From an uncultured Clostridia bacterium (GTDB taxonomy: Bacteria > Bacillota > Clostridia > Oscillospirales > Acutalibacteraceae), in the NCBI GenBank assembly GCA_947168445.1, contig CAMVLW010000003.1, forward strand, positions 1 through 64,000: a stretch of DNA of 64,000 bases. Reading direction: 5' to 3'. Positions 28,975 to 47,607 of this stretch are shown piece by piece; the first letter of the stretch is position 1, and the number at the start of each line of letters is the position of its first letter. The position numbers and the translations under genes were made by a program. A model generated the notes under the pieces. The model was not told the origin of the DNA. It worked only from the letters and a program-made list of their open reading frames with translations, and did not search any database.

Positions 28975-29637
28975 TTATTCTGTTGTTGCGTTAACCGCCT
29001 TTTTTTTGTTTTTCACTCTGATTACCAGCGCGATAACAATCGGGACGTAGGTTAAGAGCGGCAGCACAAAGCCAAAGTATTTCAGCCAATCGGTGGATTG
29101 AACGAGCATATTGAAAATGCCGTGGTAGATAATCGCCATCAACAGCAGCGCAAAGGTGCCGCAGTAGAACAGCTTTTTTTTCTGTTTGACAAAGCTCATG
29201 CCGAAGCCGACTGCCGCGGTGCAAATGCCGTGCATCAGCGCGGTTGAGAAGCCTCTGACAATAGCCCATTCGATGGAAACAGAGTCCAAGCTGGTGATAA
29301 GAATATAGGTATTCTCAAACAGCGCAAAGCCGATGCCGACGGCAAAGGACGCCGCAAGCAGCTTTTTGCGGTTATCTGTAATAACAAACGCATAAATCAA
29401 AACCGGGATTGCTTTTATGATTTCCTCTGTCGCCGGGGTGACAGTGGTGGTGACATACAGCGCGTCATAGTCCAAAAGCCGCAGCATAAGACCGTTGACT
29501 TCGGAAATAAACAGCGCGGCGCTGATACCTATCAGCAAAAAGACCATGATTCTGCGCGAGGATTTTTCAATCAGCGGCAGACTGAGCAGCAGCGGGACGA
29601 ACATACAAATGTAAAGAATGTAAATCATGTTTTCCAT
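28975..29637 (-). CDS. PrsW-like intramembrane metalloprotease
   Basis: This 220-residue polytopic protein has about seven hydrophobic segments and carries the motifs of the PrsW/CPBP-type membrane proteases: E71-E72-x-x-K75 (ATEEIIK), ALFEN at 105-109, HG at 136-137 and YHGIFN with H172. In known family members such as PrsW of Bacillus, these residues form a metal site in the membrane, and the protease cleaves anti-sigma factors (site-1) or processes membrane peptides. The gene overlaps the upstream membrane protein gene by 13 bases and has its GGGGG-type ribosome site inside that gene, so the two are translated together. It is the last gene of the minus-strand surface cluster. That it cuts the membrane-anchored proteins encoded upstream, or a regulator of them, is inferred. 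Its N-terminal 20 residues are very hydrophobic and form the first membrane helix. Confidence 0.75.
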   Translation of the reverse strand: MENMIYILYICMFVPLLLSLPLIEKSSRRIMVFLLIGISAALFISEVNGLMLRLLDYDALYVTTTVTPATEEIIKAIPVLIYAFVITDNRKKLLAASFAVGIGFALFENTYILITSLDSVSIEWAIVRGFSTALMHGICTAAVGFGMSFVKQKKKLFYCGTFALLLMAIIYHGIFNMLVQSTDWLKYFGFVLPLLTYVPIVIALVIRVKNKKKAVNATTE

Positions 29638-30284
29638 TTTTCAATCCCCCTTACCACTGTCGGAATCATTGCCGCTGTGACAATGCCGGTGACGCAGCAG
29701 CTAATCAGCGTCAAAAGCTCGTTGTCACGGCTCAGGGCAACACATTCCGTGAAAATTGCCGCCGTATAAATCAAAGCCAAAAGATTGTATTTTCTCAGAC
29801 ATTTTACAACGCCGAACTCAACATCCGGGAAAATCAGGTGCTTCAGGTTGAAATAAGAAGCCGACATCGCAAACAGGGTCAGCACCGCGCCCAAAATCTT
29901 CCATAAAGTCGGAATATCACTCAGCAGGAACAAAACGACATACATCGCAACAATCACCACGGGAGCGGCAATCGCAATCAGTCTGTACTTCTTTAATTCC
30001 TTTGAGCCTTCGTCAACAAGAGAATCGACGGTTCCGTAATTGGCTGAGAAGAAAAACATCAGACTTCCGATTAAACCCAAAAATCCGAGTTGGAAATGAT
30101 CCGATAAGGTTCCGCCGGTCATCAGACGGACGATATTAAACAGTCTGCCGAAGGTTATACAACCAAGGGAAAGCGTAATCATCTGCGCATAAAGAGCCTT
30201 TTTGGGGCGGAAGAATTGGATTCCTCCGTAAATAAACCCTGCAAGAGCACATACGCAAACAATGATGTTTGCAATTAAATACAT
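29625..30284 (-). CDS. Polytopic membrane protein of unknown function
   Basis: The product has about 219 residues with roughly seven predicted membrane helices and short loops; the longest loop (about residues 86-101, DSLVDEGSKELKKYR) is charged. I do not recognise a family. The layout of seven helices without an attached catalytic domain recalls 7TM sensor or carrier modules, but no signature supports this. Two starts are possible: ATG at 30284 (11 bases after GGAGG) and TTG at 30290 (5 bases after it). The gene lies behind a terminator that ends the upstream 1678-residue gene and is tightly coupled to the PrsW-like protease by a 13-base overlap. The pair may therefore act together, for example as protease and membrane partner; this is inference. 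Confidence 0.7.
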   Translation of the reverse strand: MYLIANIIVCVCALAGFIYGGIQFFRPKKALYAQMITLSLGCITFGRLFNIVRLMTGGTLSDHFQLGFLGLIGSLMFFFSANYGTVDSLVDEGSKELKKYRLIAIAAPVVIVAMYVVLFLLSDIPTLWKILGAVLTLFAMSASYFNLKHLIFPDVEFGVVKCLRKYNLLALIYTAAIFTECVALSRDNELLTLISCCVTGIVTAAMIPTVVRGIEKWKT

Positions 30285-30318
30285 ACTCAAGTGTACCTCC
30301 TTTTGATATTTTCTGCGA

Positions 30319-30361
30319 AAAGCACTTTACAGGGCTGTGAAAAACAGCCCTGTTGTGCTTT
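30319..30361 (-). terminator. Extended terminator hairpin after the 1678-residue gene
   Basis: Inner arms CAGGGCTG/CAGCCCTG (30330-30337, 30345-30352) and outer arms AAAGCAC/GTGCTTT (30319-30325, 30355-30361) form a long hairpin just downstream of the stop codon at 30380. Only 34 bases separate it from the next gene, so that gene depends on readthrough or on a promoter inside this segment. Confidence 0.75.
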
Positions 30362-30379
30362 AAAATAATGTTATTTTGC

Positions 30380-33300
30380 TTACAGTTCCAAGTACAGCTT
30401 GTTCTCTGTCACTGTTTCTGTGCTGTAGCCGCCGGTGATTTCAGCAGAAGGCTTGACGTTGCCATCTTCGCGCTGGGCAAACATGGTGATGCGGTTGTCG
30501 CTCATCATGTGATCTTTATCAAAGCTGATAGCGCCCTCGTTGAATTCAACGGGCTCCTTGTTGTTGCTCTTCATCACGTATTCCCACGGCAGGATTTTCT
30601 TGTCGGCACCGGTTGACGCCGAAGCCATCTCCTGAGAATAAGGAACATAGTCATACAACGCAAAGCCGATTTTTGTCAGAGGAGAAAGCAGATACCTCTT
30701 CGGCATAGTGGAGAGAATGGCGTCCTTATCGTCCCTCACTCTTTGGTTGTAATCATCGGCAACGTACATTGAGGTGTAGTACATGTAAATCTTGGGACCG
30801 TTTGTTCCCTCGTTGAGGTCTGTGGGCACGTATTGTTTGTTGACATACTTTGCCACCGGCGCGTAGTGAATTTGGTGGCGTTCCGTCATAATGCCTTCCG
30901 GATGGAATTCCTCACCGACCGTGCAGACAACGTCATAAATCGCCTCATAAAGCTGCGCCTGCTTTTCTGCATCTCTTGCCGAAGCATTTGCCTTGCTGTC
31001 TATCTCCTCTTCATTCAGCGAGAAGCCGCGGTAGCCCAGATAAACGTACTTTCCGCCGGCGCCTTGGTTGAGGTTGAGGTCACAGAACTCGGTACAGCCC
31101 TGCTCCAGCAGTCCCAGCTGCGCTTGTGTTGCAGTGTCCCCGGACGCAGCAAATATCTTGTTGAAATAGGAGGTTGTTACGTCGTACTTCGCGTGGATAA
31201 AGACCGCGTGCTTCGGATTGCCGAAAGGCACGGCAGCATTCACCTTGGTTTTGCCCCTTTCATCCTTACTGATAATGTCAGCCCGATCAACGACAAGAGC
31301 CGTGGAATAGCCGGAGATAAATACCGTGTCGCTGACTTCAATCTCGGTAATCGGCTTGCCGGGAATGGTTCCTTGGTTAAAAGAATAATAGACAAAGTAG
31401 GTTTCGCCGTCGTTCATTTTAATCGGATTTTCATTAGAAGCACAGTAGTAAACCGCTCTGTCAATCTGCATCTGATTCGCAACCGTCTTTTCTCTGGTCC
31501 TGTAAAGCAAAACGCTGCGGATTGCCTTGTCGGGATCGTCTGTTCTGGCAACGCTGAGATAAGCTGCCGGGTCGCCGCCCTTGGGAGGCACGGGATCATC
31601 GCCTGCCTTCAAGAACTTATACCAAGCCTTGGTTGGATTGCCCGCTAAATCGAACGGAATCATTTCATCGGAGCCGGCGCCTGCGGCGTCCGTCATTGCC
31701 TTCAAATCAACCTGCTTATCGAAAGCTTTCTTTTCGTCATCCGTTGGTTCCTTGTTTTTATTTGCCAATGTTTTTTTGACGTCTTCTCTTACGGCGGAAC
31801 CGACAAAGATTCTGGAAATATACTTTTTCCGCTCAACCGGGTGCTTGACATACATATAAACCGAGGTGCCTGCCTTATGGTAATGGCTTCCGTTCTTATC
31901 ATCAGAATCGTCCGGGTCGCCGTCGTCGTCTGTCCATGACGGATAAGAAATATTAAACGGCGTCAGGTTGTAGGGATCCTTTAAATCCTGAATCGAGAAG
32001 AAATCTCCGCTCGGTGTGTTTCCGGCAAGCGTTTTGTCGCCGGAAACATCGCAGGTAAGCTTGCCGTTGTTGTTCACGCCCTGATGTGCGGTTGTGCTGA
32101 CAACAACATCATCAAGCGTCAGGCGCTGACGGTTCTTGACATAACCCGAAACATAGATGTTTGTCGGAAGCAGCGTCAGTTTTCCGTCTGCTATCGAAAA
32201 ATTACCCTGCGATTCCCTTGTGAAGCCCTCTGAAACCTCCGTATTCGCACCCATAAGTCCATTGGGCGCCATATACGCATTTTCGGGCGAGATACCTCGC
32301 AGCACTCTCTTGCTGGCTACCGAACGCTGCGTCACAACAGACGCCGCCACATAGCTGGCGGATGAGTCCGCGGCTGCGGAAACATTGGCGGAATAACTCA
32401 CCGCTTTTTGGAAGCTGAGAGGAAGACTTGAAGTGTACGGCGAACCTCTGAGCACCTGCACATCTGTCAGCGCACGGTAGGGGTTGTAGCTCCAGGTGTA
32501 ATACATGCGCATGTATTTTTGGTTGCTGTCTATGATGTAGCCCTTATAGAAATAGGACTCGGCAATGTTTACGCCCTTGGTCGCGCTCGGCTCTTCGGTA
32601 TTGTGAATACCGGAAAGGGTGTCGAACAGCTGGCTGATTTTTGCCAACGTATTCATACCGGTATATGCCGCCTCTTTTTCCGAATCCGCGCCGAAGCCGA
32701 AAAAGATGCCGGAAAGATATTTTGTACCCGAGGTGTAGGTGGTTTCGGGTTCATAATACATATAGCGCTTTGCGTTGTCCCATGTGTCGTCCTCATCCGT
32801 AGCATATCCGGTATAGTTGTAGGCGTACTGCTGCGTTCTGCCCCAATCCTTGTCGCCGGCATAGCTGAAACGTGTTGTAGCGAAGTTATACGGAAGTCCG
32901 CTGAAGGTAGTGACAGGCTCCCAGCCGGGCTTCGCCTCGCTGTGGGAGGACACCAAATGAAGATGTCCGACTTCAATCGGCGTACCTGCGTTGAATTGCT
33001 TGGTGATATACAGTCCATCCAAATCCGCCGGGTATTTGCTGTCTTCATTCGTGCTGTCCGCCGGATACCCCAGAGAACCGGAGCAGCCGTAGGTGATTTC
33101 TCCGAATTTTACTTCGCCCTTGGACTGGAAGGTTCCCACTCTGATGTCACGAATCGCGAAATTGGGATCGGTTGTGGTGGTGTAAGCGAGGTAGGTGTAC
33201 TGGCTCTCGCCCAGCGACTCCTTTCTTTCATCGGCACAGAGATTCTGGTCAAGGATTTTGAATTTGCCGTCTTTTTTGTAAATCTTTGCTTTTACGGTTT

Positions 33301-35416
33301 GAGGATCCTTGCCGGATGCCACGATAATGTCGGAATAGTAGACTATTGTGCCGCTGCCTGCCTGCTGTTCGGTGCCGGTGTTTTCGGCTGCTGAGCGGTT
33401 AGCCAAAGATTCCTCGGTGCGGTAATTGATAAAGATACCGTTTACGTCGTCAGACTTGGCGCCGGTGTTGCAGTTGCCGGGCGTCATCTGACCGAAGAAG
33501 CTTGTCGTTTCATAACCGTTTACCTTATTACCGTCACCGTAGACGATATTGAAAACATTGCCGTTTTCGTCTGCGCGAATCGGGCTGCCGGCTCTTGGGT
33601 CATCAGTGGTATACATGCAAACCCAGCCGTTTTGCGCCTTATAGCCGTTAATGTCGGCAATCCGGTTTTGATTATCCCTGACCGCCTTATATATCAGGTT
33701 GACGTTCTGTCCGTTTTCACTCTTGGTATCAACCGCGAAATCCGCCATTTCGGTGTATTCCTTCGGTTGGCTTTTCAAAACCGCCTCGACAATGAGCGAA
33801 ACAATCAGGAAAATAAGGGTGAACGCCAGTACTACCAGCGTGAAGATAAATGACCAGCTGCTGACGAGTGTTGAAAAGGCAATCGCCTTGGCAGCGACGG
33901 CTGCAATGCCGGTGGTAGCCGCGGCGGTTGCGGCTTTAATCGTGAGGATTGCGCCTGCAATGCCGAACTTGCCGGCGAGCCATGTCAGGATAAAGATTCC
34001 CGAGCTGGCGATATTAATCCACTTGAGGACGTCGTTGATGGTTTTCTTTGCGCCCTCCCACTTTTCCATAGCCGTCTTTTTATCCACCAGCTGCTGGGCA
34101 GCGCTGCGGCGGATGGCGTCAGAGGTAAACGCGACCTTTTTGTCCGCCAATTGGGGATTGGTGTTTACCCAGATAGAGAAGGACTCGGTGCCCATCAAAT
34201 CCTTTACCTTTGACTTGGCACGGTTAAGAATTTTGATAGCGTCTGCGTTCTCCTTGTTTTCACCGATGTTGCCGATCAGCGGAAGCAGACCGACCACGCC
34301 AATCATTTTTCTCTGCGCGTTGGACATCGGCTCCAAAACAGGATACAGTCTTCTGAGGTTTACCTGTTCGCTGTTCTTTTTACCGATGTCAACAAGATAT
34401 TCTCCCAGCGGCTTGCCTTCAAACGCCATTTGCTGGTTGAGTTGCTCATATGCGTTGACGAACGCCATTGCACGGTCTTCGTTGGTCGGTTCGTCGGTGT
34501 TCTCCACCACGTCATCCATATTGGCGTTTTCCGCTTCGTCAACATAATCGCCGTCATCATAGGAAAGCCTTGCGTTTTCATAATCGGTGGCGAACTGCTG
34601 GAGCTGCTTGAAAAACGCCTTTGCGTCGTCGCCCATCTCCTTGTCATAGACCGCAAGCTCATCATCTGAGGTTTTTTTGCTTTCGATGATCTTCCAAAGC
34701 GCGCTGTTCTTGACCTTGTTCGCCCATGAAATATCAATTTCTTCGCCTGTTTTTTCATCCTTTCCCTTTTCCAGCGGCGTGAGTCCGGTGGCGAGGAAAT
34801 TGGAAATGGCGCTGATTGCGCCTGTGCTGGCGCGGGTAATCAGCTTGGCATAGAAATCTTCGTCGGCTTTGTCTTGTATGATATAATCACCAAGTCCGAT
34901 ATTCTCTTTTTCGGGAATACAGAACAGGTTCAGTCCGATATAGGCTTCCTTTGCCTTGGGGCTGCCGTCCTCGTAGTTGGAGATAAATTCGCTTGCGGCA
35001 TCATACATGATTTCAGCCGCGCCTGCGTTGTCCTTTTCAAGCTTCGCGTTCGCTTCGGCGTAGTCCTTGATTTCATAACCGCCGTTCATGTGAAGCAGCT
35101 TGATGTCATAAAGCGCAAGATTTTTATTATCGGTGAGCTTGTAGCCCATCACAACAGCGTCCTTGCCTGTGCCTGCGTTCAGGTCTTTCTTTGCGCATAC
35201 ATAGCCGTCGCCTTCGCAAAGCTTAATCGCTTCAGCTTCTGTTTTCGCCTGAAACACCTTGACTTCGGAGATATAATACACCTTGTTTGCCGCTAACACT
35301 TTGCCGAGCATTTGGACAGGGTATTCCAGCGCAAAGCAAACAACCAAAATGAGGGCGATTGTTTTGATAGCAAAGAAAATGGTTTTTCTCAAATGATGTT
35401 CTTTTGTACTAATCAT
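30380..35416 (-). CDS. 1678-residue membrane-anchored repeat protein, large relative of the three cluster paralogs
   Basis: Residues 12-36 are an N-terminal membrane segment or uncleaved signal. A module at about 46-118 (YYISEVKV ... DLNAGTG ... VVMGYK ... LYDIKLL) matches the N-terminal module of the three neighbouring paralogs. A helical region follows with shared landmarks (LRRLYPVLEPMS, VAFTSDAIRRSAAQQ). Two or three membrane helices lie at about 465-545, and then a long beta-rich region. In it the same kind of module recurs in degenerate form at least four times, best preserved near the C terminus (DLNLNQGAGGKYVYLGYR). The pattern DLN-x-G-GG-VYLGY ... AI-DI resembles MABP-type beta-prism modules; this is my inference. 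Unlike its relatives it lacks a C-terminal membrane anchor. The ATG at 35416 was chosen because GGCGGTGAAGG precedes it and it overlaps the upstream stop by 8 bases; the longer reading frame to 35497 lies inside the upstream gene. Function unknown. Confidence 0.85.
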   Translation of the reverse strand: MISTKEHHLRKTIFFAIKTIALILVVCFALEYPVQMLGKVLAANKVYYISEVKVFQAKTEAEAIKLCEGDGYVCAKKDLNAGTGKDAVVMGYKLTDNKNLALYDIKLLHMNGGYEIKDYAEANAKLEKDNAGAAEIMYDAASEFISNYEDGSPKAKEAYIGLNLFCIPEKENIGLGDYIIQDKADEDFYAKLITRASTGAISAISNFLATGLTPLEKGKDEKTGEEIDISWANKVKNSALWKIIESKKTSDDELAVYDKEMGDDAKAFFKQLQQFATDYENARLSYDDGDYVDEAENANMDDVVENTDEPTNEDRAMAFVNAYEQLNQQMAFEGKPLGEYLVDIGKKNSEQVNLRRLYPVLEPMSNAQRKMIGVVGLLPLIGNIGENKENADAIKILNRAKSKVKDLMGTESFSIWVNTNPQLADKKVAFTSDAIRRSAAQQLVDKKTAMEKWEGAKKTINDVLKWINIASSGIFILTWLAGKFGIAGAILTIKAATAAATTGIAAVAAKAIAFSTLVSSWSFIFTLVVLAFTLIFLIVSLIVEAVLKSQPKEYTEMADFAVDTKSENGQNVNLIYKAVRDNQNRIADINGYKAQNGWVCMYTTDDPRAGSPIRADENGNVFNIVYGDGNKVNGYETTSFFGQMTPGNCNTGAKSDDVNGIFINYRTEESLANRSAAENTGTEQQAGSGTIVYYSDIIVASGKDPQTVKAKIYKKDGKFKILDQNLCADERKESLGESQYTYLAYTTTTDPNFAIRDIRVGTFQSKGEVKFGEITYGCSGSLGYPADSTNEDSKYPADLDGLYITKQFNAGTPIEVGHLHLVSSHSEAKPGWEPVTTFSGLPYNFATTRFSYAGDKDWGRTQQYAYNYTGYATDEDDTWDNAKRYMYYEPETTYTSGTKYLSGIFFGFGADSEKEAAYTGMNTLAKISQLFDTLSGIHNTEEPSATKGVNIAESYFYKGYIIDSNQKYMRMYYTWSYNPYRALTDVQVLRGSPYTSSLPLSFQKAVSYSANVSAAADSSASYVAASVVTQRSVASKRVLRGISPENAYMAPNGLMGANTEVSEGFTRESQGNFSIADGKLTLLPTNIYVSGYVKNRQRLTLDDVVVSTTAHQGVNNNGKLTCDVSGDKTLAGNTPSGDFFSIQDLKDPYNLTPFNISYPSWTDDDGDPDDSDDKNGSHYHKAGTSVYMYVKHPVERKKYISRIFVGSAVREDVKKTLANKNKEPTDDEKKAFDKQVDLKAMTDAAGAGSDEMIPFDLAGNPTKAWYKFLKAGDDPVPPKGGDPAAYLSVARTDDPDKAIRSVLLYRTREKTVANQMQIDRAVYYCASNENPIKMNDGETYFVYYSFNQGTIPGKPITEIEVSDTVFISGYSTALVVDRADIISKDERGKTKVNAAVPFGNPKHAVFIHAKYDVTTSYFNKIFAASGDTATQAQLGLLEQGCTEFCDLNLNQGAGGKYVYLGYRGFSLNEEEIDSKANASARDAEKQAQLYEAIYDVVCTVGEEFHPEGIMTERHQIHYAPVAKYVNKQYVPTDLNEGTNGPKIYMYYTSMYVADDYNQRVRDDKDAILSTMPKRYLLSPLTKIGFALYDYVPYSQEMASASTGADKKILPWEYVMKSNNKEPVEFNEGAISFDKDHMMSDNRITMFAQREDGNVKPSAEITGGYSTETVTENKLYLEL

Positions 35417-36923
35417 TTCCTTCACCGCCTTCCGTTGCTTTTTTCTTTTTCTTTTGATAGATAACCAATCCTGCCGCGCCGGCGATACCGGCAGCACCGA
35501 GAATTGTCACCGCGTAAAAGCCGCCTTCGCTGAAAACGGAGCCGCTTGTTACCATCTTGGCTTCAACCGTTCTTGACTCCCGTGTGGTAAGGTTGCCCTT
35601 GTCAGCGATAAAATACTGCTTTTGATATTGACTGACCCACTCGGAAACCATAACGCTGCTGCTGCCTGTTGAGCCGAGGTGAACCTCTGAGCCCTTATAC
35701 AGTCCGGCGTTGATAATGCGGGCTTTTCCGAGCGTGTAGTTATTCAGCGCCAGGTTGTTAACAGCCGCTTCCTTGGCGGAATTCTGCTTAATCAGCGTGA
35801 GTCCCTTGAGCGTGAGGTTGTAGCGGCCGTCCACATAAACGCCGCCGCCTTCATCGCCTGCGCTGTTGCCGACAATCTCACAGCTTGAAAGCGCAATGTT
35901 GTCGTCATTGATATACAGCGCGCCGCCGTCTTTCTTGGCGGAATTTCCGCGGAACTTGCAGTTGTGGAACACAATCGCCTGATTATATTCGGGGTTGTCG
36001 TTGATATAAACTGCGCCGCCGTCCTGGTTTGCCTCATTGCCCGCGAAAATACAGTTTTGAGCTGTTAATACCGTCGCCACATATTTTGAGGTATCATGAG
36101 CGGTGTAAATCGCGGCACCCTGTTCGCGGCAATGGTTGCCGGAAAAAATCACTCTGTCCAGATAGATATTGCCGCGCAGCGAGTAGATGGCGGCGCCGTC
36201 GTCCTCGCTGTAGCAATCGTCAATCTTGGCGTTTGAAATATTGATGGTGCCCTTGTTCATATAAATGCCGCCGCCGCAGCAGTTATCAGCACTGTCAACG
36301 GTTTGGCAGCCGTAAATTCTGCCGCCGGTCATGGTGAATTTTGTGTTAGAGGAGTTGCCGTCAAGATAAACGCCGCCGCCGTCCTCGTCGGTGATGCACT
36401 TATAAATGGTGCCGCCCTCCATACGGAATTCGCCGTCCTCGTCAATGTGAACGCCGCCGCCTGTGTTGGTGCTTGCACCGCCGGTAATCACGCCGCCCCT
36501 TACGCCGTCATAGCCCGCAGCCTTGGGATTGCTGTCGCGCACGGTCAAGACGGCGTTCTTTTCTACCTTGAAAACCTCGCCGTTGCGTTGCTTTTCCTCT
36601 AAGCTGCGCTTAATGTAATGACCGTTGAGGTCGATGGTGATACGCATGCCGGCGCCCACGGTATACAGCACGTTTTCTTCCCAGTTGGAGCCGAGGGTGA
36701 TAACGGTTTCTTTGGCGTTGTTCGCGTTGTTAAATGCAGCGAGCCAAGCTTCTTTGGGGGTGTTGTAATGATTTGACGAAATCACCTTGCCATCTTGAAT
36801 CACCTCGACATTCGCTCCCGAGGTGACGGTTTTTGCGTCAACCGCGCCTGCCGTCGGAACCGCAATTGCCGCAAGGAACAAACTTACCGCAGGAATGACC
36901 GGGATAAACTTTTTAAACTTCAT
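35409..36923 (-). CDS. Membrane-anchored beta-helix surface protein (short)
   Basis: This 504-residue protein has a signal peptide (residues 1-29, ending near TAGAVDA). A right-handed parallel beta-helix covers about residues 108-408, shown by recurring GGGVYLDG, GGGIYMNKG, GAAIYS, GGAVYIND and GGALYIND turns and N-x-A/S ladders. One membrane helix near 468-491 is followed by a KKKKK tail. There is no LPXTG sorting motif, so anchoring is by the membrane helix. Beta-helix repeats of this type occur in Pmp-like adhesins and polysaccharide-acting proteins; no catalytic residues stand out. The ATG at 36923 is preceded by AAAGGAG 9 bases upstream, which lies in the end of the preceding gene. The 66 bases before it in frame belong to that gene. 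It sits between a larger beta-helix protein and the 1678-residue protein in one operon, suggesting a common surface structure. Confidence 0.85.
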   Translation of the reverse strand: MKFKKFIPVIPAVSLFLAAIAVPTAGAVDAKTVTSGANVEVIQDGKVISSNHYNTPKEAWLAAFNNANNAKETVITLGSNWEENVLYTVGAGMRITIDLNGHYIKRSLEEKQRNGEVFKVEKNAVLTVRDSNPKAAGYDGVRGGVITGGASTNTGGGVHIDEDGEFRMEGGTIYKCITDEDGGGVYLDGNSSNTKFTMTGGRIYGCQTVDSADNCCGGGIYMNKGTINISNAKIDDCYSEDDGAAIYSLRGNIYLDRVIFSGNHCREQGAAIYTAHDTSKYVATVLTAQNCIFAGNEANQDGGAVYINDNPEYNQAIVFHNCKFRGNSAKKDGGALYINDDNIALSSCEIVGNSAGDEGGGVYVDGRYNLTLKGLTLIKQNSAKEAAVNNLALNNYTLGKARIINAGLYKGSEVHLGSTGSSSVMVSEWVSQYQKQYFIADKGNLTTRESRTVEAKMVTSGSVFSEGGFYAVTILGAAGIAGAAGLVIYQKKKKKATEGGEGND

Positions 36924-36930
36924 TAGCTGT

Positions 36931-39900: not shown

Positions 39901-40092
39901 TTTTATTGACGTTCCTTCTTCAAAATAGTCGCCTATTTCAAGGTTTAAGACCTTTGCTGATGCACCCTTATAGTATTCTCTTGCAGAAACGGAGGAAATG
40001 CCGATTGAAGCCATGCTCATGCACAAAAGGAGTACAAGCAAAACTGACAAAAGGCGCTTTGCTAATGATTTTCTTTTTTTCACCTTGCTCAC
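36931..40092 (-). CDS. Membrane-anchored beta-helix surface protein with InlB-type repeat (long)
   Basis: The product has about 1053 residues: signal peptide at 1-37 (lysine-rich start, LLSVLLVLLLC core, SVSA end), then a parallel beta-helix over about 150-550 with recurring GGGVYLEN, GGALYIDA, GGGIANLG, GGGLYIDG, GGALWANSG and GGGIYMD turns. Ig-like beta regions follow. A Listeria-Bacteroides (InlB B-type) repeat lies near 916-1003 (VEFNKNGGT ... YTFVGWNTQPDGSG ... ILYAIWK). A membrane helix near 1014-1042 and an RKKKK tail end the protein. The InlB repeat and beta-helix point to an adhesive or structural surface role; no enzyme motif was seen. The start is uncertain: GTG at 40092 (AAAGGAG 12 bases upstream) or GTG at 40083 (AAAGGA about 10 bases upstream). 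The longer ATG frame at 40161 would lie inside the upstream gene and begins with its charged tail sequence. It follows the upstream gene by about 25 bases. Confidence 0.85.
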   Translation of the reverse strand: MSKVKKRKSLAKRLLSVLLVLLLCMSMASIGISSVSAREYYKGASAKVLNLEIGDYFEEGTSIKNLNFYDKKVYRKMIAYLDGEFYQETDTAFVFDRAVTLERVEREPNTFPILPLFYFESFEDTETEVKTEETLRTALRNTEISLKDNIELKDTLYVIDGKAHVIKTNGYSIKLLRGGPTAIKIDNGSTLTLIGSGNEGTSTVTGADSVGLGSAFRVLNNSNLILKGMNITDNTGKLGGGVYLENSTIEATNCRFKNNIGYENGGALYIDANSSATLNNCEIANNKGKDGGGIANLGKLTISGCKIKSNATLDNKGGGGGIWSSGDATITNTDITQNKDAVNGGGVTNHKNMTLTDCTIAANEASGWGGGLYIDGSNTVLDNTNVNNNDGKTGAGIHLRKGALTVKKATMNNNTSSEAGGALWANSGTTATLSDVTMTNNTCKTNGGALNSHGTLSLTRCTINGCTADNCGGGIYMDTSGTLTIQAGDISNCRAFSGGAGIHFHAGSLILLGGRTRITDSTTNGNSSNLWFREFKPIQIQGQFYIGSSIGITPPGIDNYNATSGYGQYNESAPADVFYCDNNQSKVDREENKEVKLITTMKSGDRNNYHVEIYLKVTDDADAWDYAYFHIYGKENKGIGNETLLHTSYDFHTSIDEDGKSINYTYDCDPNYFPSSVDVITSFGTDLIPRDFEADVTVKINNVNVASHHVVHKVYGDERKNTRINIGGDKYPYPEDFEIDTPKQIDTSGVVTVSAVDQYRVKWTVKSSDITMENVSFPGEDTIEPVDNSGYKWRVSSTYNSIHHSTYNMTFKSGSNVYPTITKPINVKFVFLLHLSVVVNGKEVFHASGSSRDTVHAANLKVPEGYYIESFDDDTGIKYDDLSETNEATGDYIQNFDFTFINDSVTLNAILAPNYYSVEFNKNGGTKVTSSGRVKSDVSGSAVNTSFLYDEPKQLPAHTLRRTNYTFVGWNTQPDGSGTMYERDATVTNLTSKKGGKVILYAIWKSVKAASTSSSIFSDGTIMLYIGSGVLLAAIVTSVIYSSRKKKKPVGKE

Positions 40093-40117: not shown

Positions 40118-42502
40118 TTACGAAATTCCGGCGTTTTCTTTTCTTTTTCTGGCTGATACAATTAACAGCGCCATTAAACCGCCGCCGACAAGTAAGCCGA
40201 TAATCGCTCCGAGCGCAATGGAACCGCCGGAGAACAGGGAGCCTGCCGCTGTTTGCTCCTTGACAGCAGCGACGTCGCGCTTAAAGTAAACATAGGTGCC
40301 GCCATAGGGGTCGTTGTAGCTGTATTTGTTTTTTTCGTCGGTAAGGTTTTGCACCGCCGTTTCACCGAACATGTGAATACCGGTGTCATAACCCTCAGGA
40401 GCGCCGCTGCCCAGCTTCATCTTCAGGGAATCCGCGAGAATCGGCGTACCGTCCTCATATTTCACGCTGTAGAGAGCAAGCCACTGCTGTCCGACATCGC
40501 CGTTGAGGTCGGCGCGGTCTTTGAGAATTTCGTGGTTTTTCTTTTCAACCGCACTTCCGCCTCCGTCGGTGCGGTTGCAGGTGACGACCTTGTAATAGGC
40601 GGTCTGGTTTTTAATCATCACCGTTTGCTTTTTGCCGTTGATGGTTTGGTCTTCGGTGATGTCAGCCTGCTCAACAATGTATTTGGGAATCGGCGCAAAA
40701 TCGACCTTGTAATACGCCATCAGTTCCGAGATAGTGGTGTAGATGGAAATACCTGCCAGCACCACCATTGCAATGGTGAAGCCCATAGCGAGATACCTGC
40801 ATACCGTTGACTTGGAAGCGAACTGTTTTAACGCATCTTTATATTTGTCGCTGGTTTCGATATTCTTTACGGTTCTTTCCAGTCCCTTCAATCTCACACT
40901 TGCCGCAATGCCTCTGGGATTTTGACTCCGGAAGTCCGCTAAATTCTGTTGTGCCTGTTTCAGCTCCGCAAATATGGAGGGTTCCATTTTGGAAGCAATC
41001 ACCGTACCAACTGCCGCGACGCCGGCTGCCGCCGTGCACATCCACATTGCAATGCCTAAGCCGCTGAGTTCAAAGGTGGATTTTACTTCCTGAGCGGCAG
41101 CCTTCGCGCGCAGCGCGTCATTTGTCAGCGCAACGCCGCCCTTTTCATAAATTTCACGGTTAACATCCTGATAGATGGAAGCGGGCTGAATACCGTCTAA
41201 CTTTGCGTCCTTAAAGCCGCTTTCGTCCGAAATTGCCATGACAATCATATCCTTGATGGAAATAAAGTCCAAGCCCGCCAGCTGACCGCCGGAAAGCGCG
41301 TCTACCATCGGATACAGAGCGCGGATATTTTTATCGCCGTTGAATTCCGCCACGTTCTTTTGGAAGAAATCCAACAGGTTTGTTTTGCCATAGTTGGTTG
41401 AGGCAAGGTGGTCGTGAGTAACAATATCCTCCGCCGCCATACCGCCCTGAACAACGGTTCCCTGATCCTTATACATCTTGACGGCAGCGTCCTGAACTTC
41501 CTTATCGGTTGAGTTGTCGGTCAGGGTGACGTTTGTTTCAGCGGAAACCGGCGTTTCGGCAACTTCATCCAACGAGTCAAGCGCGTTGTCATAGTTGAGC
41601 AGTATTTCGTTAAAGGCGCTCCACTTGTCGCGGATTTTCTTGGCGTCGTCGTTATATTTTTTGTCAAGCTCTTTGTTGATGTCAGTGGGAGTGAGAGTGG
41701 GATTTTCTTTTTTGATTTCTTCGGACAGCTTTTCAAGGCTTGTGTTCTGAAAGCGGTCAAGCCATGTGTCGTCTGAGGAGTCAGAAGCCTTTGTCAGCTC
41801 GGTTTCCATCAGCTGCACCGCCTGTCCGTTGCCCTGCATTAACAGGGTGACGATGTCGCAGTGGTTTTTCTTTTCGGTGTCGGACAGCTTGTTGTAGGCT
41901 TCGTCGCCCATCTCATACTTTGTCGGGTTGACGAGCAAATCACCCAGCGGTCTGCCACCGGTGTCGTCGTCGGTCAGCTTGTTAAGCAGGGTTTTGAAGT
42001 AGCTTGCGCGCTTGTAGTTAGCGGAATCCTGCGGCTTTTTCAGGTTTGCGCGGTATTCGTTGAGCGTTGCTACAAAACGGCTGACAAACGGTTTGATTTG
42101 AGAATCCATCTGAGTCTGCATCAGCTTGTCATAGTCCTCATAGCTGTAGCCGCCGTTCATGTTCATGACCGCAAGATCGGTCACCGCGTCGCTTGCGTCG
42201 TCGGTGGTTTTGTAGCCGAGATAGACGATTTTCTGGTTGGGACCCTGTTTGAGAGGACTCTTGGCGCCCGCGTCCTTGTTAAGATCGGCATATTCGCCTT
42301 GGTCGTCGGCAAGAATGGTGTAGCCGTCTGCCAAAAGCTCCTTTGAGGCTTCGTCAGAGGTTTTGCCCATGCCAACCTTGACCTCGCTGATATACTTCTT
42401 TCCGTTGCTCTCCGCGGCAGAAGCAATTACCTGTGCCGGAGCGAGCACCAGCATTGACACACAAAGCAATGCTGATGTAATCACTGTCACAAATTTTTTC
42501 AT
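40118..42502 (-). CDS. Exported three-helix membrane protein, cluster paralog C
   Basis: This 794-residue protein belongs to a family I cannot name. Residues 1-30 are a signal peptide. Residues 36-125 form the module shared by the cluster (KYISEVKVG ... ADLNKDAG ... VYLGYKTT ... AVTDLAVMNMNGGYS). Residues about 126-475 are helical and well conserved among paralogs (IRALYPMVDALS, NREIYEKGGVAL). Membrane helices lie near 481-505, 565-595 and 754-784. Between the first two is a charged, coiled-coil-like segment that differs among paralogs; topology predicts it to be cytoplasmic. A conserved external domain lies between helices two and three (FAPIPKYIVEQADITE ... WLALYSVKYEDGTPILAD). The protein ends in a basic tail (SARKRKENA). 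The ATG at 42502 follows GGAGG by 8 bases. An in-frame upstream extension is promoter sequence. It is the first gene of the promoter-proximal group leading to the beta-helix genes. Confidence 0.85.
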   Translation of the reverse strand: MKKFVTVITSALLCVSMLVLAPAQVIASAAESNGKKYISEVKVGMGKTSDEASKELLADGYTILADDQGEYADLNKDAGAKSPLKQGPNQKIVYLGYKTTDDASDAVTDLAVMNMNGGYSYEDYDKLMQTQMDSQIKPFVSRFVATLNEYRANLKKPQDSANYKRASYFKTLLNKLTDDDTGGRPLGDLLVNPTKYEMGDEAYNKLSDTEKKNHCDIVTLLMQGNGQAVQLMETELTKASDSSDDTWLDRFQNTSLEKLSEEIKKENPTLTPTDINKELDKKYNDDAKKIRDKWSAFNEILLNYDNALDSLDEVAETPVSAETNVTLTDNSTDKEVQDAAVKMYKDQGTVVQGGMAAEDIVTHDHLASTNYGKTNLLDFFQKNVAEFNGDKNIRALYPMVDALSGGQLAGLDFISIKDMIVMAISDESGFKDAKLDGIQPASIYQDVNREIYEKGGVALTNDALRAKAAAQEVKSTFELSGLGIAMWMCTAAAGVAAVGTVIASKMEPSIFAELKQAQQNLADFRSQNPRGIAASVRLKGLERTVKNIETSDKYKDALKQFASKSTVCRYLAMGFTIAMVVLAGISIYTTISELMAYYKVDFAPIPKYIVEQADITEDQTINGKKQTVMIKNQTAYYKVVTCNRTDGGGSAVEKKNHEILKDRADLNGDVGQQWLALYSVKYEDGTPILADSLKMKLGSGAPEGYDTGIHMFGETAVQNLTDEKNKYSYNDPYGGTYVYFKRDVAAVKEQTAAGSLFSGGSIALGAIIGLLVGGGLMALLIVSARKRKENAGIS
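40479..40665. repeat. 187-bp identical tract, copy in paralog C
   Basis: Every base matches 43037-43223 in paralog B on direct reading. The tract encodes part of the external domain between membrane helices two and three. Paralog A differs at many positions here. Confidence 0.85.
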
Positions 42503-42550: not shown

Positions 42551-42585
42551 ATCATAACATACGTTGGGGGACAATTAGGGGACAA
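42551..42585 (-). promoter_or_regulatory. Promoter with 11-bp-period direct repeat upstream of paralog C
   Basis: On the minus strand two TTGTCCCC octamers (42578-42585 and 42567-42574) repeat with an exact 11-base period. Eleven bases lie between the nearer repeat and a TATGAT -10 (42551-42556). No normal -35 exists at 17 bases, so the repeats probably bind an activator. The same arrangement, with the same spacings, lies at 47641-47675. Confidence 0.65.
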
Positions 42586-42652: not shown

Positions 42653-42678
42653 GAGGTTATTTGTGTTTTTCAGTTGTT

Positions 42679-45111
42679 TTAGGCTGCGTTTGTTTTCTTC
42701 TTTCTGCCGGCAATCCTTGTGATGATAAAGGTAATCAGGCAGCCCGCAGCCAAGCCGATGACCGCTCCGAGCACAAGAGAGCCGCCGGAGAACACAGAGC
42801 CGGCAGTTTGAGTGTCCGCGGAAACAACGTCACGCTTAAAGAAAACGTAGGTGCCCTCATTGGGGTCGTTGTAGCAGATGTCACCCTTGGTGGTGGTGAG
42901 GTTTTGCGCCGCTGTTTCACCGAACATGTGAATTCCGGTATCATAACCCTCAGGCGCGGGACCGTCGCCCAGCTTCACCTTTAAGGAATCCGCGAGAATC
43001 GGCGTGCCGTTATTGTATTTCACGCTGTAGAGCGCCAGCCACTGCTGTCCGACATCGCCGTTGAGGTCGGCGCGGTCTTTGAGAATTTCGTGGTTTTTCT
43101 TTTCAACCGCACTTCCGCCTCCGTCGGTGCGGTTGCAGGTGACGACCTTGTAATAGGCGGTCTGGTTTTTAATCATCACCGTTTGCTTTTTGCCGTTGAT
43201 GGTTTGGTCTTCGGTGATGTCAGTCTTTTCAACGATGTATTTGGGAATCGGCGCGAAATCGACCTTGTAGTATTCCATCAGTTCCGTGATGGTGGTGTAG
43301 ATGGAATAGCCTGCCAATATGACTCCTGCGATAGCAAAGCCGACTGAGAGATATTTGCAGATGTTTGATTTTAAAGCAAACGCTCTTGTCGCCTTTTTAT
43401 ACGCTTCTTCAGAAGGTCCTAATCGTTCAATTCTTTCCAGCGCAATAGCCTGTTTGTCTTTGTATATGTCTCTGATAATTCCAAAACCAAACTCACTTTC
43501 GGGTTTTGCAAGTTCTCGATTTATATAATTGAGCGCATTTCTGGCCTCGTTTAATTTTGCAACGTCTGCTTGCAGCCGGAGCATGCTTTCACTCGGTTTA
43601 AGACTCTTAAACGCAGCTAATGACGCTATCGCCGCGGCTGTGGAAGCCGCTGTGCAGCTCCAAAGAACGATTCCTGTCGTGCTCAGCGCAAAGGCAGGTT
43701 TCGGATTCTGTGAGCTCGCCTGTGCACGTATTGCATCGCTTGTCAGCGCAACGCCGCCCTTTTCATAAATTTCGCGGTTAACGTCTTGAAAGATTGAAAC
43801 CGGCTCCACATTGCTTATTTTCGCATCATTAAAGCTGTTTTTGTCAGCGACAGCCATCATGATCATATCCTTGACGGAGAGAAAATCCAGTCCGGCAATC
43901 TGACCGCTGGAAAGCGCGTCAACAATCGGATACAAATTGCGGATATTTTTTTCGCTGGTAAATTCCGACACGTCCTTTTGGAAGAATTCCAAGAGCGTGC
44001 CCTTGCCGTATTTGGACGCTTCAAGAAAATCGTGCGCAATGATGTCCTCAGCCGCCATGCTGCCCTTGACCACGTCCGCCTGGGATACATACGCGTCGGC
44101 AACTGCTTCTTTGATTTCTTGTTCGGACGAATCATCGTTCACCTTGATTTCTTTTACTTCCGTCTCAACAGCCTCGTCCAACTCATCGAGAGCATTATCG
44201 TAATTGAGCAGAATCTCATTGAAGGCGCTCCACTTGTCGCGGATTTTCTTGGCGGCGTCGTTATACTTTTTGTCAAGCTCCTTGTTGATGTCAGTGGGAG
44301 TGAGAGTGGGATTTTTCTCTTTAATCTCTTGTGTAAGAGCGTTTAAATCGGTTTTCAAAAATCTGTCAAGCCATGTGTCGTCTGAGGAGTCCGACGCCTT
44401 TGTCAGCTCGGTTTCCATCAGTTGTATCGACTCTCCCTTGCCCTGCATCAACAGAGTGAGAATGTCGCAGTGGTTCTTCTTCTCGGTGTCGGACAGCTTA
44501 TTGTAAGCTTTATCGCCCATTTCGTATTTTGTTTGGTTCACCAGCAAATCGCCCAGCGGTCTGCCGCCGGTGTCGTCGTCAGTCAGCTTGTTAAGCAGGC
44601 TTTTGTAATAATTCGCGCGCTTGAAGTTGACGGAATCCTGCGGCTTTTGCAGATTTGCGCGGTATTCGTTGAGCGTTGCGATAAAGCGGTCAACAAACGG
44701 CTTAATCTGGGAATTCATCTGGGTATTCATCAGATCCTCATATTCCTGATAGCTGAATCCGCCTTTCATGTTCATCACTGCAAGGTCGGTCACCGCGTCG
44801 CCTGCATCGCCGGTGGTTTTGTAGCCGAGATAGACAATCTTCTGGTTGGGACCTTGTTTGAGAGGACTCTTGGCGCCCGCGCCCTCGTTAAGATTGGCAT
44901 ATTCGCCTTGGTCGTTGGCAAGAATCGTGTAGCCCTCTGCCAAAAGCTCCTTTGAAGCTTCGTCTGAGGTTACACCCATGCCAACCTTCACCTCGCTGAT
45001 GTATTTCTTTGCGTTGCTCTCCGCCGCGGAAGCAATCATCTGCGCGGGACCAACTGCCAGCATTGACACACAGAGCATTGCCGAGGTGATGCCGGTTAAA
45101 AGCTTTTTCAT
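42679..45111 (-). CDS. Exported three-helix membrane protein, cluster paralog B
   Basis: This 810-residue member of the same family has the signal peptide (MKKLLTGITSAMLC start), the N-terminal KYISEVKVG/VYLGYKTT module, the long helical external region, and membrane helices near 472-500, 584-615 and 770-797. A divergent charged segment lies between the first two helices (LQADVAKLNEARNAL and onward). The external domain before the last helix is conserved and the tail is basic (RIAGRKKKTNAA). The ATG at 45111 is preceded by GGAG with 8 bases spacing; a TTG two codons upstream is less likely. The gene starts 24 bases after paralog A with no terminator between, so they form one operon. Its DNA is a patchwork: one tract is identical to A, the adjoining one identical to C. 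Function is unknown; export and membrane anchoring are clear from sequence. Confidence 0.85.
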   Translation of the reverse strand: MKKLLTGITSAMLCVSMLAVGPAQMIASAAESNAKKYISEVKVGMGVTSDEASKELLAEGYTILANDQGEYANLNEGAGAKSPLKQGPNQKIVYLGYKTTGDAGDAVTDLAVMNMKGGFSYQEYEDLMNTQMNSQIKPFVDRFIATLNEYRANLQKPQDSVNFKRANYYKSLLNKLTDDDTGGRPLGDLLVNQTKYEMGDKAYNKLSDTEKKNHCDILTLLMQGKGESIQLMETELTKASDSSDDTWLDRFLKTDLNALTQEIKEKNPTLTPTDINKELDKKYNDAAKKIRDKWSAFNEILLNYDNALDELDEAVETEVKEIKVNDDSSEQEIKEAVADAYVSQADVVKGSMAAEDIIAHDFLEASKYGKGTLLEFFQKDVSEFTSEKNIRNLYPIVDALSSGQIAGLDFLSVKDMIMMAVADKNSFNDAKISNVEPVSIFQDVNREIYEKGGVALTSDAIRAQASSQNPKPAFALSTTGIVLWSCTAASTAAAIASLAAFKSLKPSESMLRLQADVAKLNEARNALNYINRELAKPESEFGFGIIRDIYKDKQAIALERIERLGPSEEAYKKATRAFALKSNICKYLSVGFAIAGVILAGYSIYTTITELMEYYKVDFAPIPKYIVEKTDITEDQTINGKKQTVMIKNQTAYYKVVTCNRTDGGGSAVEKKNHEILKDRADLNGDVGQQWLALYSVKYNNGTPILADSLKVKLGDGPAPEGYDTGIHMFGETAAQNLTTTKGDICYNDPNEGTYVFFKRDVVSADTQTAGSVFSGGSLVLGAVIGLAAGCLITFIITRIAGRKKKTNAA
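42727..43011. repeat. 285-bp identical tract, copy in paralog B
   Basis: Reads identically to 45184-45468 in paralog A (offset 2457). It encodes the end of the external domain and the last membrane helix. Confidence 0.9.
43037..43223. repeat. 187-bp identical tract, copy in paralog B
   Basis: Identical to 40479-40665 in paralog C (offset 2558). It begins only 25 bases after the tract that matches paralog A instead. Confidence 0.85.
44828..45027. repeat. 200-bp identical tract, copy in paralog B
   Basis: Identical to 47324-47523 in paralog A (offset 2496). It encodes most of the N-terminal module just after the signal peptide. Confidence 0.85.
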
Positions 45112-45135
45112 AACCAATTCTCCTTTTTTCCTGAC

Positions 45136-47607
45136 TTATTCGGCTTTTTCCTTCTTCTTTTTGCCGACAATCCTTGTGATGACAAAGGTAATCAGGCAGC
45201 CCGCAGCCAAGCCGATGACCGCTCCGAGCACAAGAGAGCCGCCGGAGAACACAGAGCCGGCAGTTTGAGTGTCCGCGGAAACAACGTCACGCTTAAAGAA
45301 AACGTAGGTGCCCTCATTGGGGTCGTTGTAGCAGATGTCACCCTTGGTGGTGGTGAGGTTTTGCGCCGCTGTTTCACCGAACATGTGAATTCCGGTATCA
45401 TAACCCTCAGGCGCGGGACCGTCGCCCAGCTTCACCTTTAAGGAATCCGCGAGAATCGGCGTGCCGTTTTTGTATTTCACGCTGTAGAGCGCCAGCCACT
45501 GCTTGCCGACGTCGCCGTTGAGGTCGGCGCAGTCTTTCAGAATTTCATGGTTCTTCTTTTCAACATTGGTGCCGCCGCCGTCGGTGCGGTTGCAGGTGAC
45601 GACCTTGTAGTAAGCGGTCTGATTTTGAATCATCACCGTTTGCTTTTTGCCGTTGATGGTTTGGTCTTCGGTGATGTCAGCCTGCTCAACAATGTATTTG
45701 GGAATCGGAGAGAAATCGACCTTGTAGTACTCCATCATTTCCGTGATGGTAGTGTAGATGGAATAACCGGCAAGAAATGCCATGGCAATTGTAAAGCCGG
45801 CGGCAATATATCTGGAAATGTTAGATTTGGACACAACCTCTTTCATTGCGTTCTGATACTCTTTTGTGTTTGAATAGTTTTCGATATTCTTTATAGATGA
45901 TTTTATGCCCTGTTCTCTCATGTCGAGCATGTGCTGCGTCACGGAGTTACCCGGATCATTTTGAAGCATCTGCTCAAACCTGAGATAATCATTCTGTGCA
46001 TTTGTCAAGCTGTTTTGCAACTGTTGCATCCTCTGCTCAACGATTTTGTTGACAGTTCTTGTAACACTCGTAGTCGGCTTGATAGAGGAACCGATAATCA
46101 AGGAACCGGCTGCCGCCATTCCGGCGAAAGCAGTACAGCCCCAGAGCACACAGCCCAGTTTGCTCAGTTCAAAGGTTGTTTCCGTCTGCTGAGCGGCAGC
46201 CTTTGCGCGCAGCGCTTCGTTTGTCAGCGCCACGCCGCCTTTTTCGTAGATTTCACGGTTGACGTCCTGGAAAATGGAAGCCGACTCCATCTTGCTTGAA
46301 TCAACGTCATCAAAACCGCCGTCAATTGAAATGGCAATCATCATCAAATCCTTGATGGAAAGGAAGTCAAGACCTGCCAGCTGTCCGTCGGAGAGCGCAT
46401 CTACCATCGGATACAGATTACGGATGTTTTTCTCACTGCTGAATTCCGCAGCGTTCTTTTGGAAGAATTCCAGAAGTGTGCCTTTGCCGTATTTATTCAC
46501 TTCAAGGAAATCGTGAGCGGCAATATCCTCTGCCGATCTGCCTGCCTTGATCATCGCTCCCTGGGAATTGTACGCTTCTGCAGCCACTTCGGTAACTTCC
46601 TCTTTGGTTGGGTTATCGCTAAGCTTGACCTCTTTTTTGTCGGCTTCTTCTTCCATTTCGTCAAGCAGTTCGTCCGCTCTGTCATTCGCGTCATCATAAT
46701 TGAGCAGAACCTCATTGAAGGCGCTCCACTTGTCGCGGATTTTCTTGGCGGCGTCGTTATACTTTTTGTCAAGCTCCTTGTTAATCTCTGTGGGTGTAAG
46801 AGTGGGATTTTCATCCTTAATCTCTTTCGAAAGAGAATTCAAGTCGGTTTGCACAAAGCGGTCAAGCCATGTGGTGTCGGAGGAGTCAGCCGCCTTGGTC
46901 AGCTCGGTTTCCATCAGCTGCACCGCCTGTCCGTTGCCCTGCATTAAAAGGGTAAGAATGTCACAGTGGTTTTTCTTTTCTGTGTCGGACAGCTTGTTGT
47001 AGGCTTCGTCGCCCATTTCGTACTTTGTCTGATTGACCAGCAAATCACCCAAGGGTCTGTTGCCGGTGTCGTCGTCGGTCAGCTTGTTGAGCAGGGTTTT
47101 GTAGTAATTCGCACGCTTGTAGTTAGCGGAATCCTGCGGCTTTTTAAGATTTTCGCGGTATTCGTTGAGCGTTGCGATAAAACGGTCTACAAACGGCTTG
47201 ATTCTGGTGTTCATGTGGTTGTTCATCAGCGTTTCGTAGTCCTCAAAGCTGTAGCCGCCCCTCATGTTCATGACCGCAAGGTCGGTGACAGCGTCTTTCG
47301 CGTTGTCGGTGGTTTTGTAGCCCAGATAGACAATCTTCTGGTTGGGACCTTGTTTGAGAGGACTCTTGGCGCCCGCGCCCTCGTTAAGATTGGCATATTC
47401 GCCTTGGTCGTTGGCAAGAATCGTGTAGCCCTCTGCCAAAAGCTCCTTTGAAGCTTCGTCTGAGGTTACACCCATGCCAACCTTCACCTCGCTGATGTAT
47501 TTCTTTGCGTTGCTCTCCGCCGCAGAAGCGATTACCTGCGTGGGAGCAATAAACAGCATTGCCATACAGAGCACAGCTGAAGTTATGGCTGTCAGTATTT
47601 TTTTCAT
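45136..47607 (-). CDS. Exported three-helix membrane protein, cluster paralog A
   Basis: This 823-residue protein is the first gene of the minus-strand cluster. It has a signal peptide (MKKILTAITSAVLCMAM), the KYISEVKVG ... LNEGAG ... VYLGYKTT ... AVTDLAVMNM module at about 36-125, and a helical external region with NIRNLYPMVDALS and NREIYEKGGVALTNEALR landmarks. Membrane helices lie near 482-506, 597-626 and 784-811; between the first two is a long charged coiled-coil-like segment (KIVEQRMQQLQNSLTNAQND and onward). The conserved external domain and a KKKKEKAE tail follow. The ATG at 47607 follows AGGAGG by 7 bases. A promoter with 11-bp direct repeats lies just upstream. I know no named family; homology to paralogs B and C and to the 1678-residue protein is evident. 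A secreted, membrane-tethered multi-subunit structure is inferred. Confidence 0.85.
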   Translation of the reverse strand: MKKILTAITSAVLCMAMLFIAPTQVIASAAESNAKKYISEVKVGMGVTSDEASKELLAEGYTILANDQGEYANLNEGAGAKSPLKQGPNQKIVYLGYKTTDNAKDAVTDLAVMNMRGGYSFEDYETLMNNHMNTRIKPFVDRFIATLNEYRENLKKPQDSANYKRANYYKTLLNKLTDDDTGNRPLGDLLVNQTKYEMGDEAYNKLSDTEKKNHCDILTLLMQGNGQAVQLMETELTKAADSSDTTWLDRFVQTDLNSLSKEIKDENPTLTPTEINKELDKKYNDAAKKIRDKWSAFNEVLLNYDDANDRADELLDEMEEEADKKEVKLSDNPTKEEVTEVAAEAYNSQGAMIKAGRSAEDIAAHDFLEVNKYGKGTLLEFFQKNAAEFSSEKNIRNLYPMVDALSDGQLAGLDFLSIKDLMMIAISIDGGFDDVDSSKMESASIFQDVNREIYEKGGVALTNEALRAKAAAQQTETTFELSKLGCVLWGCTAFAGMAAAGSLIIGSSIKPTTSVTRTVNKIVEQRMQQLQNSLTNAQNDYLRFEQMLQNDPGNSVTQHMLDMREQGIKSSIKNIENYSNTKEYQNAMKEVVSKSNISRYIAAGFTIAMAFLAGYSIYTTITEMMEYYKVDFSPIPKYIVEQADITEDQTINGKKQTVMIQNQTAYYKVVTCNRTDGGGTNVEKKNHEILKDCADLNGDVGKQWLALYSVKYKNGTPILADSLKVKLGDGPAPEGYDTGIHMFGETAAQNLTTTKGDICYNDPNEGTYVFFKRDVVSADTQTAGSVFSGGSLVLGAVIGLAAGCLITFVITRIVGKKKKEKAE
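45184..45468. repeat. 285-bp identical tract, copy in paralog A
   Basis: Identical to 42727-43011 in paralog B; divergence resumes at 45469. Confidence 0.9.
47324..47523. repeat. 200-bp identical tract, copy in paralog A
   Basis: Identical to 44828-45027 in paralog B; the first difference is at 47524. Confidence 0.85.

Follow-up and report, generated by a model that had tools for sequence, protein, structure and literature searches.

A candidate surface system of gut and rumen Clostridia: predicted split MABP-type prisms, beta-helix proteins and a shared C-terminal signal beside a PrsW-family protease

Introduction

Eight neighbouring minus-strand genes at positions 28975-47607 of contig CAMVLW010000003.1, from an uncultured Clostridia bacterium of the Acutalibacteraceae (assembly GCA_947168445.1), raise the question of whether they encode a single apparatus and, if so, what the protease among them is for. 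The window analysed here is the 64,000-nucleotide stretch of that contig in which they lie. From upstream to downstream the genes encode three paralogs (PARa, PARb and PARc), two exported beta-helix proteins (BH1076 and BH526), a very large protein (BIG), a polytopic membrane protein (TM221) and a PrsW-family intramembrane protease. PrsW proteases are known mainly as signalling enzymes, and their presence beside genes for exported proteins is open to more than one reading. A first-pass annotation made from the sequence had proposed that the cluster specifies an undescribed, membrane-tethered surface structure. Here we describe the conservation of the gene set, a C-terminal signal carried by three of its families and the predicted fold of PAR and BIG, and weigh what the protease may do.

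A conserved set of eight genes

PARa (45136..47607), PARb (42679..45111) and PARc (40118..42502) are 823, 810 and 794 aa long when counted from ATG, with an identity to the first row of 71%, and have a common architecture of a signal peptide and a predicted MABP beta-prism that is split by a helical insertion with a transmembrane (TM) hairpin. BIG (30380..35416; 1678 aa) begins with a module homologous to the paralogs (E 1.7e-7, and 1.7e-12 in the reverse search), including a TM hairpin, and continues with several MABP-type prisms. BH1076 (36931..40092), a 1076-aa frame with probable start at GTG 40092 rather than the first TTG, matches beta-helix model PF13229 (E 2.2e-19) and List_Bact_rpt. 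BH526 (35409..36923), of 526 aa, holds Chlam_PMP repeats (E 2.5e-8), and because its homologs start at ATG 36923 this codon, rather than the first TTG, is probably its start. TM221 (29625..30290) has no Pfam family and is paired with PrsW (28975..29637), which matches PF13367 at E 1.1e-17 (64.6 bits vs a cut-off of 23.5). Above the Pfam cut-off, the eight proteins hold beta-helix, Chlam_PMP, List_Bact_rpt and PrsW parts and nothing else; no Pfam or NCBIfam model reaches its cut-off in PAR or BIG, and current annotation would therefore leave them as hypothetical proteins.

The inventory of the first-pass annotation is borne out by these searches: eight minus-strand genes, a 1678-residue protein that is a true relative of the paralogs, two beta-helix proteins and a PrsW-like protease above cut-off. 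Its account of the membrane segments needs correcting in part. N-terminal hydrophobic segments are present, and PAR, BH1076 and BH526 end in a C-terminal TM segment with a basic tail, but BIG has no C-terminal TM; "three-helix" is apt for the hydrophobic segments of the paralogs, but not for a three-helix bundle.

Among 98 related genomes searched for PAR and BIG, PAR occurs in 11 and BIG in 12, all within the window's genus, and each of the 11 genomes with PAR also has BIG; in one further related genome (G057) BIG is cut by a contig end. A BIG profile scan of an 84,980-species collection returned 160 pattern matches, of which 101 were confirmed relatives, at 79 distinct loci, all read with hidden Markov models (HMMs) built from the first 20. 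The carriers are mostly Ruminococcus-like, Lachnospiraceae, Eubacterium and Clostridia metagenome-assembled genomes of the gut or rumen, together with Erysipelotrichaceae (some Bacilli), and Eubacterium xylanophilum ATCC 35991 has three copies. None of 39 pattern matches on viral contigs was confirmed, and plasmids gave no match.

In 57 of the 58 loci that extend far enough to tell, the gene immediately upstream of BIG codes for a beta-helix protein. PAR was identified in 43 of 56 testable loci, and several of the 13 counted without it start inside BIG at a contig end. TM221 or PrsW is present within a 10-kb flank in 32 of 51, and where TM221 occurs PrsW stands beside it (34/35 loci). Of the 19 loci counted without the pair, at least three (L099, L106 and L115) are artefacts of this limit and have it just outside the flank. 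The partners stay the same at 20-40% identity across families. Conserved synteny was what the first-pass annotation had named as the sign of one system, and together with the presence of BIG in every PAR genome it supports a single undescribed system; the cluster is very probably one dedicated surface system. Its genes are not always kept together: TM221-PrsW occurs in three other genomes in which no PAR was found.

Two variations among the loci concern the exported proteins. At L141, L146 and L148 an extra exported protein (546-666 aa open reading frames (ORFs) beside PrsW), which begins like PAR and ends in an ASVFG/ASIFG tail, occupies the BH1076 position in one cluster type. Matches of about 2550 residues to the BH1076 HMM, with no C-terminal TM, are found at L107 (15127-22776) and L117 (14737-22413).

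A C-terminal signal common to unrelated proteins

PAR, BH526 and BH1076 have a common ending, not noticed in the first-pass annotation, even though their ectodomains are unrelated: the motif (A/G)S-x-F-(S/G)-x-G is followed by a TM segment and then by a basic tail. In the window the signal reads AGSVFSGG, TM and KKKK in PARa (45139..45276), SSSIFSDG, TM and RKKKK in BH1076 (36934..37074) and SGSVFSEGG, TM and KKKKK in BH526 (35418..35573), and is found at 42682..42819 in PARb and 40121..40258 in PARc. No LPXTG precedes the TM in any of the five tails.

Across the loci, after removal of rows that were truncated, shorter than 280 aa or contained X, and then of nine rows lacking a C-terminal TM, the strict motif is present in 41/62 PAR, 41/56 BH526 and 26/29 BH1076 tails; a control set of 42 further ORFs that end in a TM and a basic tail gave a single match, which from its position is an antisense frame. 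At the 35 loci with both families, the motif F is present in PAR and BH526 together at 23, in BH526 only at one, in PAR only at none and in neither at 11, a co-variation that is not corrected for relatedness. Searching the window's genome with a tail profile gave strong matches to the five cluster proteins only (E 4e-19 or better), and five weaker matches (best E 2.8e-4) that cover only the TM and basic part. Six further genomes gave 25 matches at E 0.01, of which 22 cover the motif. Of these 22, 20 belong to clusters, as established for 19 by direct reading or identical contig coordinates and for one by the length of its frame. The two orphans are proteins of 251 aa (G104:C23) and 180 aa (G101:C9), the latter with no TM221-PrsW pair nearby. 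As judged from these sequence comparisons, the tail signal is shared by three unrelated families and is private to the cluster in the window's genome.

The TM221-PrsW pair

A regular expression for EExxK, FxxxE and two HG/HA motifs, which we take to be the conserved catalytic motifs of the PrsW family, found all of them in 32 of 35 cluster PrsW proteins of at least 200 aa, the remaining three lacking one or both HG/HA motifs. TM221 is rare, occurring in four of 391 genomes of the class with the window's own included, and no PAR was found in the other three (G201, G207 and G215).

The pair also occurs away from the cluster, and a signal-bearing protein lies beside two of four such stand-alone pairs. 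At L182 (G104:C23, 4905-8644) the neighbour is the 251-aa exported orphan, which resembles PAR in the tail only, and weakly in the signal peptide; at L193 (G201:C210, 6143-9782) it is a 483-aa beta-helix-like protein ending in PASIFGEG and a TM. A different setting is seen at L194 (G207:C11, 232-10241), in which a histidine kinase (HK) and a response regulator (RR) precede TM221-PrsW and a SpoIIE phosphatase and small proteins follow; here the pair may serve in signalling. By eye, the small proteins resemble STAS/anti-sigma partners.

Predicted fold of PAR and BIG

An AlphaFold2 model of PARa (57 sequences; pLDDT 73) is mostly confident at residues 35-115, in the helical region and at 630-775. 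Aligned with VIA-align, it matches the C-terminal prism of Mpf2Ba1 (8b6u) at Z 12.4 over 139 residues (rmsd 2.3, 27% identity), followed by 2qp2 (Z 11.9) and the MABP domain of human MVB12B (3tow, Z 9.7), the next unrelated row standing at Z 4.2. The C-terminal 1130 residues of BIG gave a good model (pLDDT 86.6, pTM 0.79) with at least two MABP-type prisms of about 200-240 model residues each, at model residues 866-1103 (Z 14.2) and 141-344 (Z 12.7). Its best match is 8b6u/8b6v (Z 14.2), with 3tow at Z 10.4 and the next unrelated row at 2.9, and a sequence profile of the last BIG prism also reached Mpf2Ba1 (E 2.1e-5) through DLN-GAGG repeats. On the strength of the models, and for BIG also of the sequence profile, both proteins are taken to hold MABP-type beta-prisms. 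The first-pass annotation, which saw no match to a described system, was right as to Pfam families for PAR and BIG, but the MABP fold must be added.

The DLN triad of Mpf2Ba1 is described as coordinating metal, and the motif as occurring in each of three repeats (PMC10344926). In the last BIG prism the three repeats retain the N of the DLN-type motif in 45/46, 43/46 and 46/46 rows; in PAR the motif reads [DN]LN with N in 52/57 rows, DLN with N in 47/57, and a degenerate NL(T/N) in the third repeat. The PAR model shows no contiguous MABP domain of about 150 residues, its 139 aligned residues falling between 34 and 775. Such an alignment range gives the ends only, and the split is therefore read from several facts combined: the target residues 335-482 form one domain, the two ends of the model both contribute to the match, and the insertion is preceded by one DLN-type motif and followed by two. 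The PAR prism would thus be interrupted by some 510 residues, modelled as helical partly at low confidence, that include the membrane hairpin. The corresponding topology would place the half prism that follows the signal peptide, and the helical region, outside, pass the hairpin through the membrane, return the second half prism to the outside and end with the tail TM and its basic end inside.

Several further matches to the paralogs were set aside. HMG_box, matched in 9/19 PAR rows (E 3e-4 at best, below cut-off), falls in helical sequence and is regarded as due to chance, and PDCD10, found at E 0.007 when the whole PAR profile was searched against PDB sequences, likewise matched a helical stretch. 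The loop between the hairpin helices (PARa about 510-604), predicted to be cytoplasmic, varies strongly among the otherwise closely similar paralogs.

Regulation and neighbouring genes

Upstream of PARa (47658..47675) and PARc (42568..42585), on the minus strand, two copies of TTGTCCC stand 11 bp apart as TTGTCCC-N4-TTGTCCC, followed by a TATGATAA-like box. The exact tandem pattern occurs at two places in the whole genome, both in the cluster. Looser tandem TTGTC repeats precede 10/39 PAR starts vs 6/540 other ORFs; many PAR genes are internal to operons, so no operator is expected before them. With two mismatches allowed there are five more places in the genome vs ten for a reversed-pattern control, which is background, and so no regulon beyond the cluster was found.

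Beyond PARa lie a divergent SpoIIE-type PP2C phosphatase with a HAMP region (47805..49457, plus strand), a response regulator (49926..50726, minus strand) and a histidine kinase (PF06580; 50745..52040, minus strand), all recurrent neighbours: HK or RR HMMs match in 16/79 loci and SpoIIE in 10/79. The response regulator is a candidate to bind the tandem operator. A SARP-like DNA-binding domain in it was a by-eye impression, absent from its Pfam matches at E up to 10.

Elsewhere in the window, positions 1726-26862 (minus strand) encode a single exported protein of 8378 residues with a C-terminal dockerin-like repeat (by eye), adjoined by a cohesin, Big_2 and dockerin protein at 143-1711; the former appears to be a scaffold-type protein of giant size, and its setting resembles that of a cellulosome. 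On the other side, an exported protein at 53939-54979 (minus strand) matches CBM26 weakly and also an LPXTG-type anchor model, with no visible LPXTG, and its tail lacks the cluster's C-terminal signal.

A proposed mechanism and its alternatives

We tentatively favour a surface system on the outer face whose tails are recognised, and cut or re-anchored, by TM221-PrsW. PAR and BIG would be exported, and their MABP-type prisms would stand with the beta-helix proteins on the outer face, anchored by membrane hairpins in PAR and BIG and by C-terminal TM tails in PAR, BH1076 and BH526. TM221-PrsW would recognise the tripartite tail signal and cut at or in the membrane, and the cut would release the proteins or re-anchor them during assembly, much as a sortase does. 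The two-component pair would activate the operon by way of the two TTGTCCC copies of its operator, and the assembly would probably bind a membrane or glycan surface, for adhesion or attachment in the gut or rumen. An action of TM221-PrsW on the tail signal is quite possible, and is the most economical explanation because a private signal on unrelated proteins stands beside a private enzyme. Surface or membrane attachment as the function is a guess, made because MABP domains bind lipids elsewhere (PMC7593815) and because most carriers come from the gut or rumen; glycan, host and microbial targets are alike possible.

Several observations weigh against this proposal. TM221-PrsW is not adjacent to one cluster of E. 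xylanophilum (L088/L185), although a PrsW is encoded elsewhere in that genome, and in G207 and G215 the stretch read around the stand-alone pair contains no protein with the signal. The strict motif is missing from 21/62 PAR and 15/56 BH526 tails, whole clusters are inherited together, which tempers the co-variation of PAR and BH526, and the five sortases of the window's genome mean that other anchoring routes exist. As to the fold, the PAR model is only moderate overall and scores under 50 in the hairpin region, Foldseek found no PDB match at E <= 0.001 for the PAR and BIG models, and joining the two prism halves of PAR into one profile brought up no MABP chain (best E 0.53), so that the split prism rests on the model, the DLN motifs and the homology with BIG, with no sequence match.

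The main rival takes TM221-PrsW to be a signalling protease that works with the HK, RR and SpoIIE proteins, senses the state of the envelope and switches the operon, the tails being ordinary anchors whose likeness reflects packing with a common membrane partner. It draws on the recurrence of these regulators at cluster loci, on the arrangement in G207, which has neither a signal-bearing neighbour nor a PAR found in the genome, and on the described role of PrsW, site-1 cleavage of RsiW in B. subtilis (PMC3482391). Against it, the tail is common to unrelated ectodomains and recurs beside stand-alone TM221-PrsW, and no anti-sigma factor was recognised by Pfam among the eight proteins; we consider this rival rather unlikely. 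Contact-dependent antagonism or pore formation, with the prisms targeting a membrane that the helical or hairpin region enters, is improbable. The MABP prism is indeed the membrane-facing module of MACPF proteins (PMC10344926 and PMC7593815), and alpha-pore-forming toxin chains are weakly listed for the PAR model, at a Z of 3.2 or less that is not significant and was not counted as evidence. However, no MACPF or toxin domain is among the Pfam matches listed for PAR and BIG at E up to 10 (for PAR, 25/32 families), no immunity gene was recognised, the window's paralogs are alike and not polymorphic, and the hairpin needed to return the C-terminal prism half to the outside points to a resident membrane protein. 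Least probable is that the surface genes are independent of one another and form a loose island only through chance or gene transfer: the patchy occurrence of PAR and BIG among the 98 relatives would suit it, but the same partners recur across families with a shared tail signal and operator.

Returning to the processing of tails by TM221-PrsW, a stronger formulation is possible, and is offered with reserve: that the pair is a new sortase-like enzyme with an obligate polytopic partner, which reads an undescribed Gram-positive signal and builds a surface organelle of split-MABP and beta-helix proteins. If so, PrsW proteases would also take part in constructing the Gram-positive surface and would have a defined substrate signal, and the split prism with its hairpin would be a new route for bringing a membrane-binding domain of ESCRT and perforin type onto a bacterial surface. 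Rumen bacteria, for which attachment matters, are among the main carriers.

Comparison with known systems

In the literature searched, mostly without subscription papers, nothing was recognised on this cluster or on a PrsW-dependent tail signal or sorting. The individual parts have known folds. What appears to be new is the splitting of the prism, the C-terminal signal and the association with TM221-PrsW.

The prisms of PAR and BIG resemble those of MABP/beta-tripod proteins (MVB12B, 3TOW; Mpf2Ba1, 8B6U; the Photorhabdus protein 2QP2; MPEG1) in fold, at Z 9.7-14.2, and in the repeated DLN metal-loop motif, and MPEG1 too has a TM-anchored ectodomain, believed to be shed by proteolysis (PMC7593815). 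They differ in that the PAR prism, and by homology that of the first BIG module, is predicted to be split by the long helical insertion with its hairpin, in that BIG strings several prisms together and, with respect to MACPF proteins, in having no recognised MACPF domain. BH526 and BH1076 recall Chlamydia Pmp and other right-handed beta-helix adhesins in their Chlam_PMP and beta-helix repeats, but end in a single TM with a basic end, no autotransporter barrel being recognised.

Motif, TM and basic tail on unrelated exported proteins are also the plan of the sortase/LPXTG, archaeosortase, rhombosortase and myxosortase/MYXO-CTERM systems, and as in those tripartite sorting systems the signal is private to a set encoded with or near one intramembrane protease. 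Unlike them, the cluster motif has neither LPXTG nor an invariant Cys, and the enzyme, known here from sequence, is of the PrsW family with TM221 as partner. Myxosortase belongs to the CPBP family. PrsW is described as distantly related to CPBP proteases (PMC3482391). It is with the RsiW site-1 protease and the PrsW-fused toxins that the enzyme shares PF13367 and the EExxK, FxxxE and histidine motifs, but it is a stand-alone protein of 220 aa paired with TM221, with no toxin fusion and no recognised RsiW-like substrate. The reasoning that would connect TM221-PrsW with the tails is by analogy that which revealed MrtJ/JDVT-CTERM and myxosortase, MrtJ/JDVT-CTERM having been proposed from a two-gene neighbourhood (PMC11980579).

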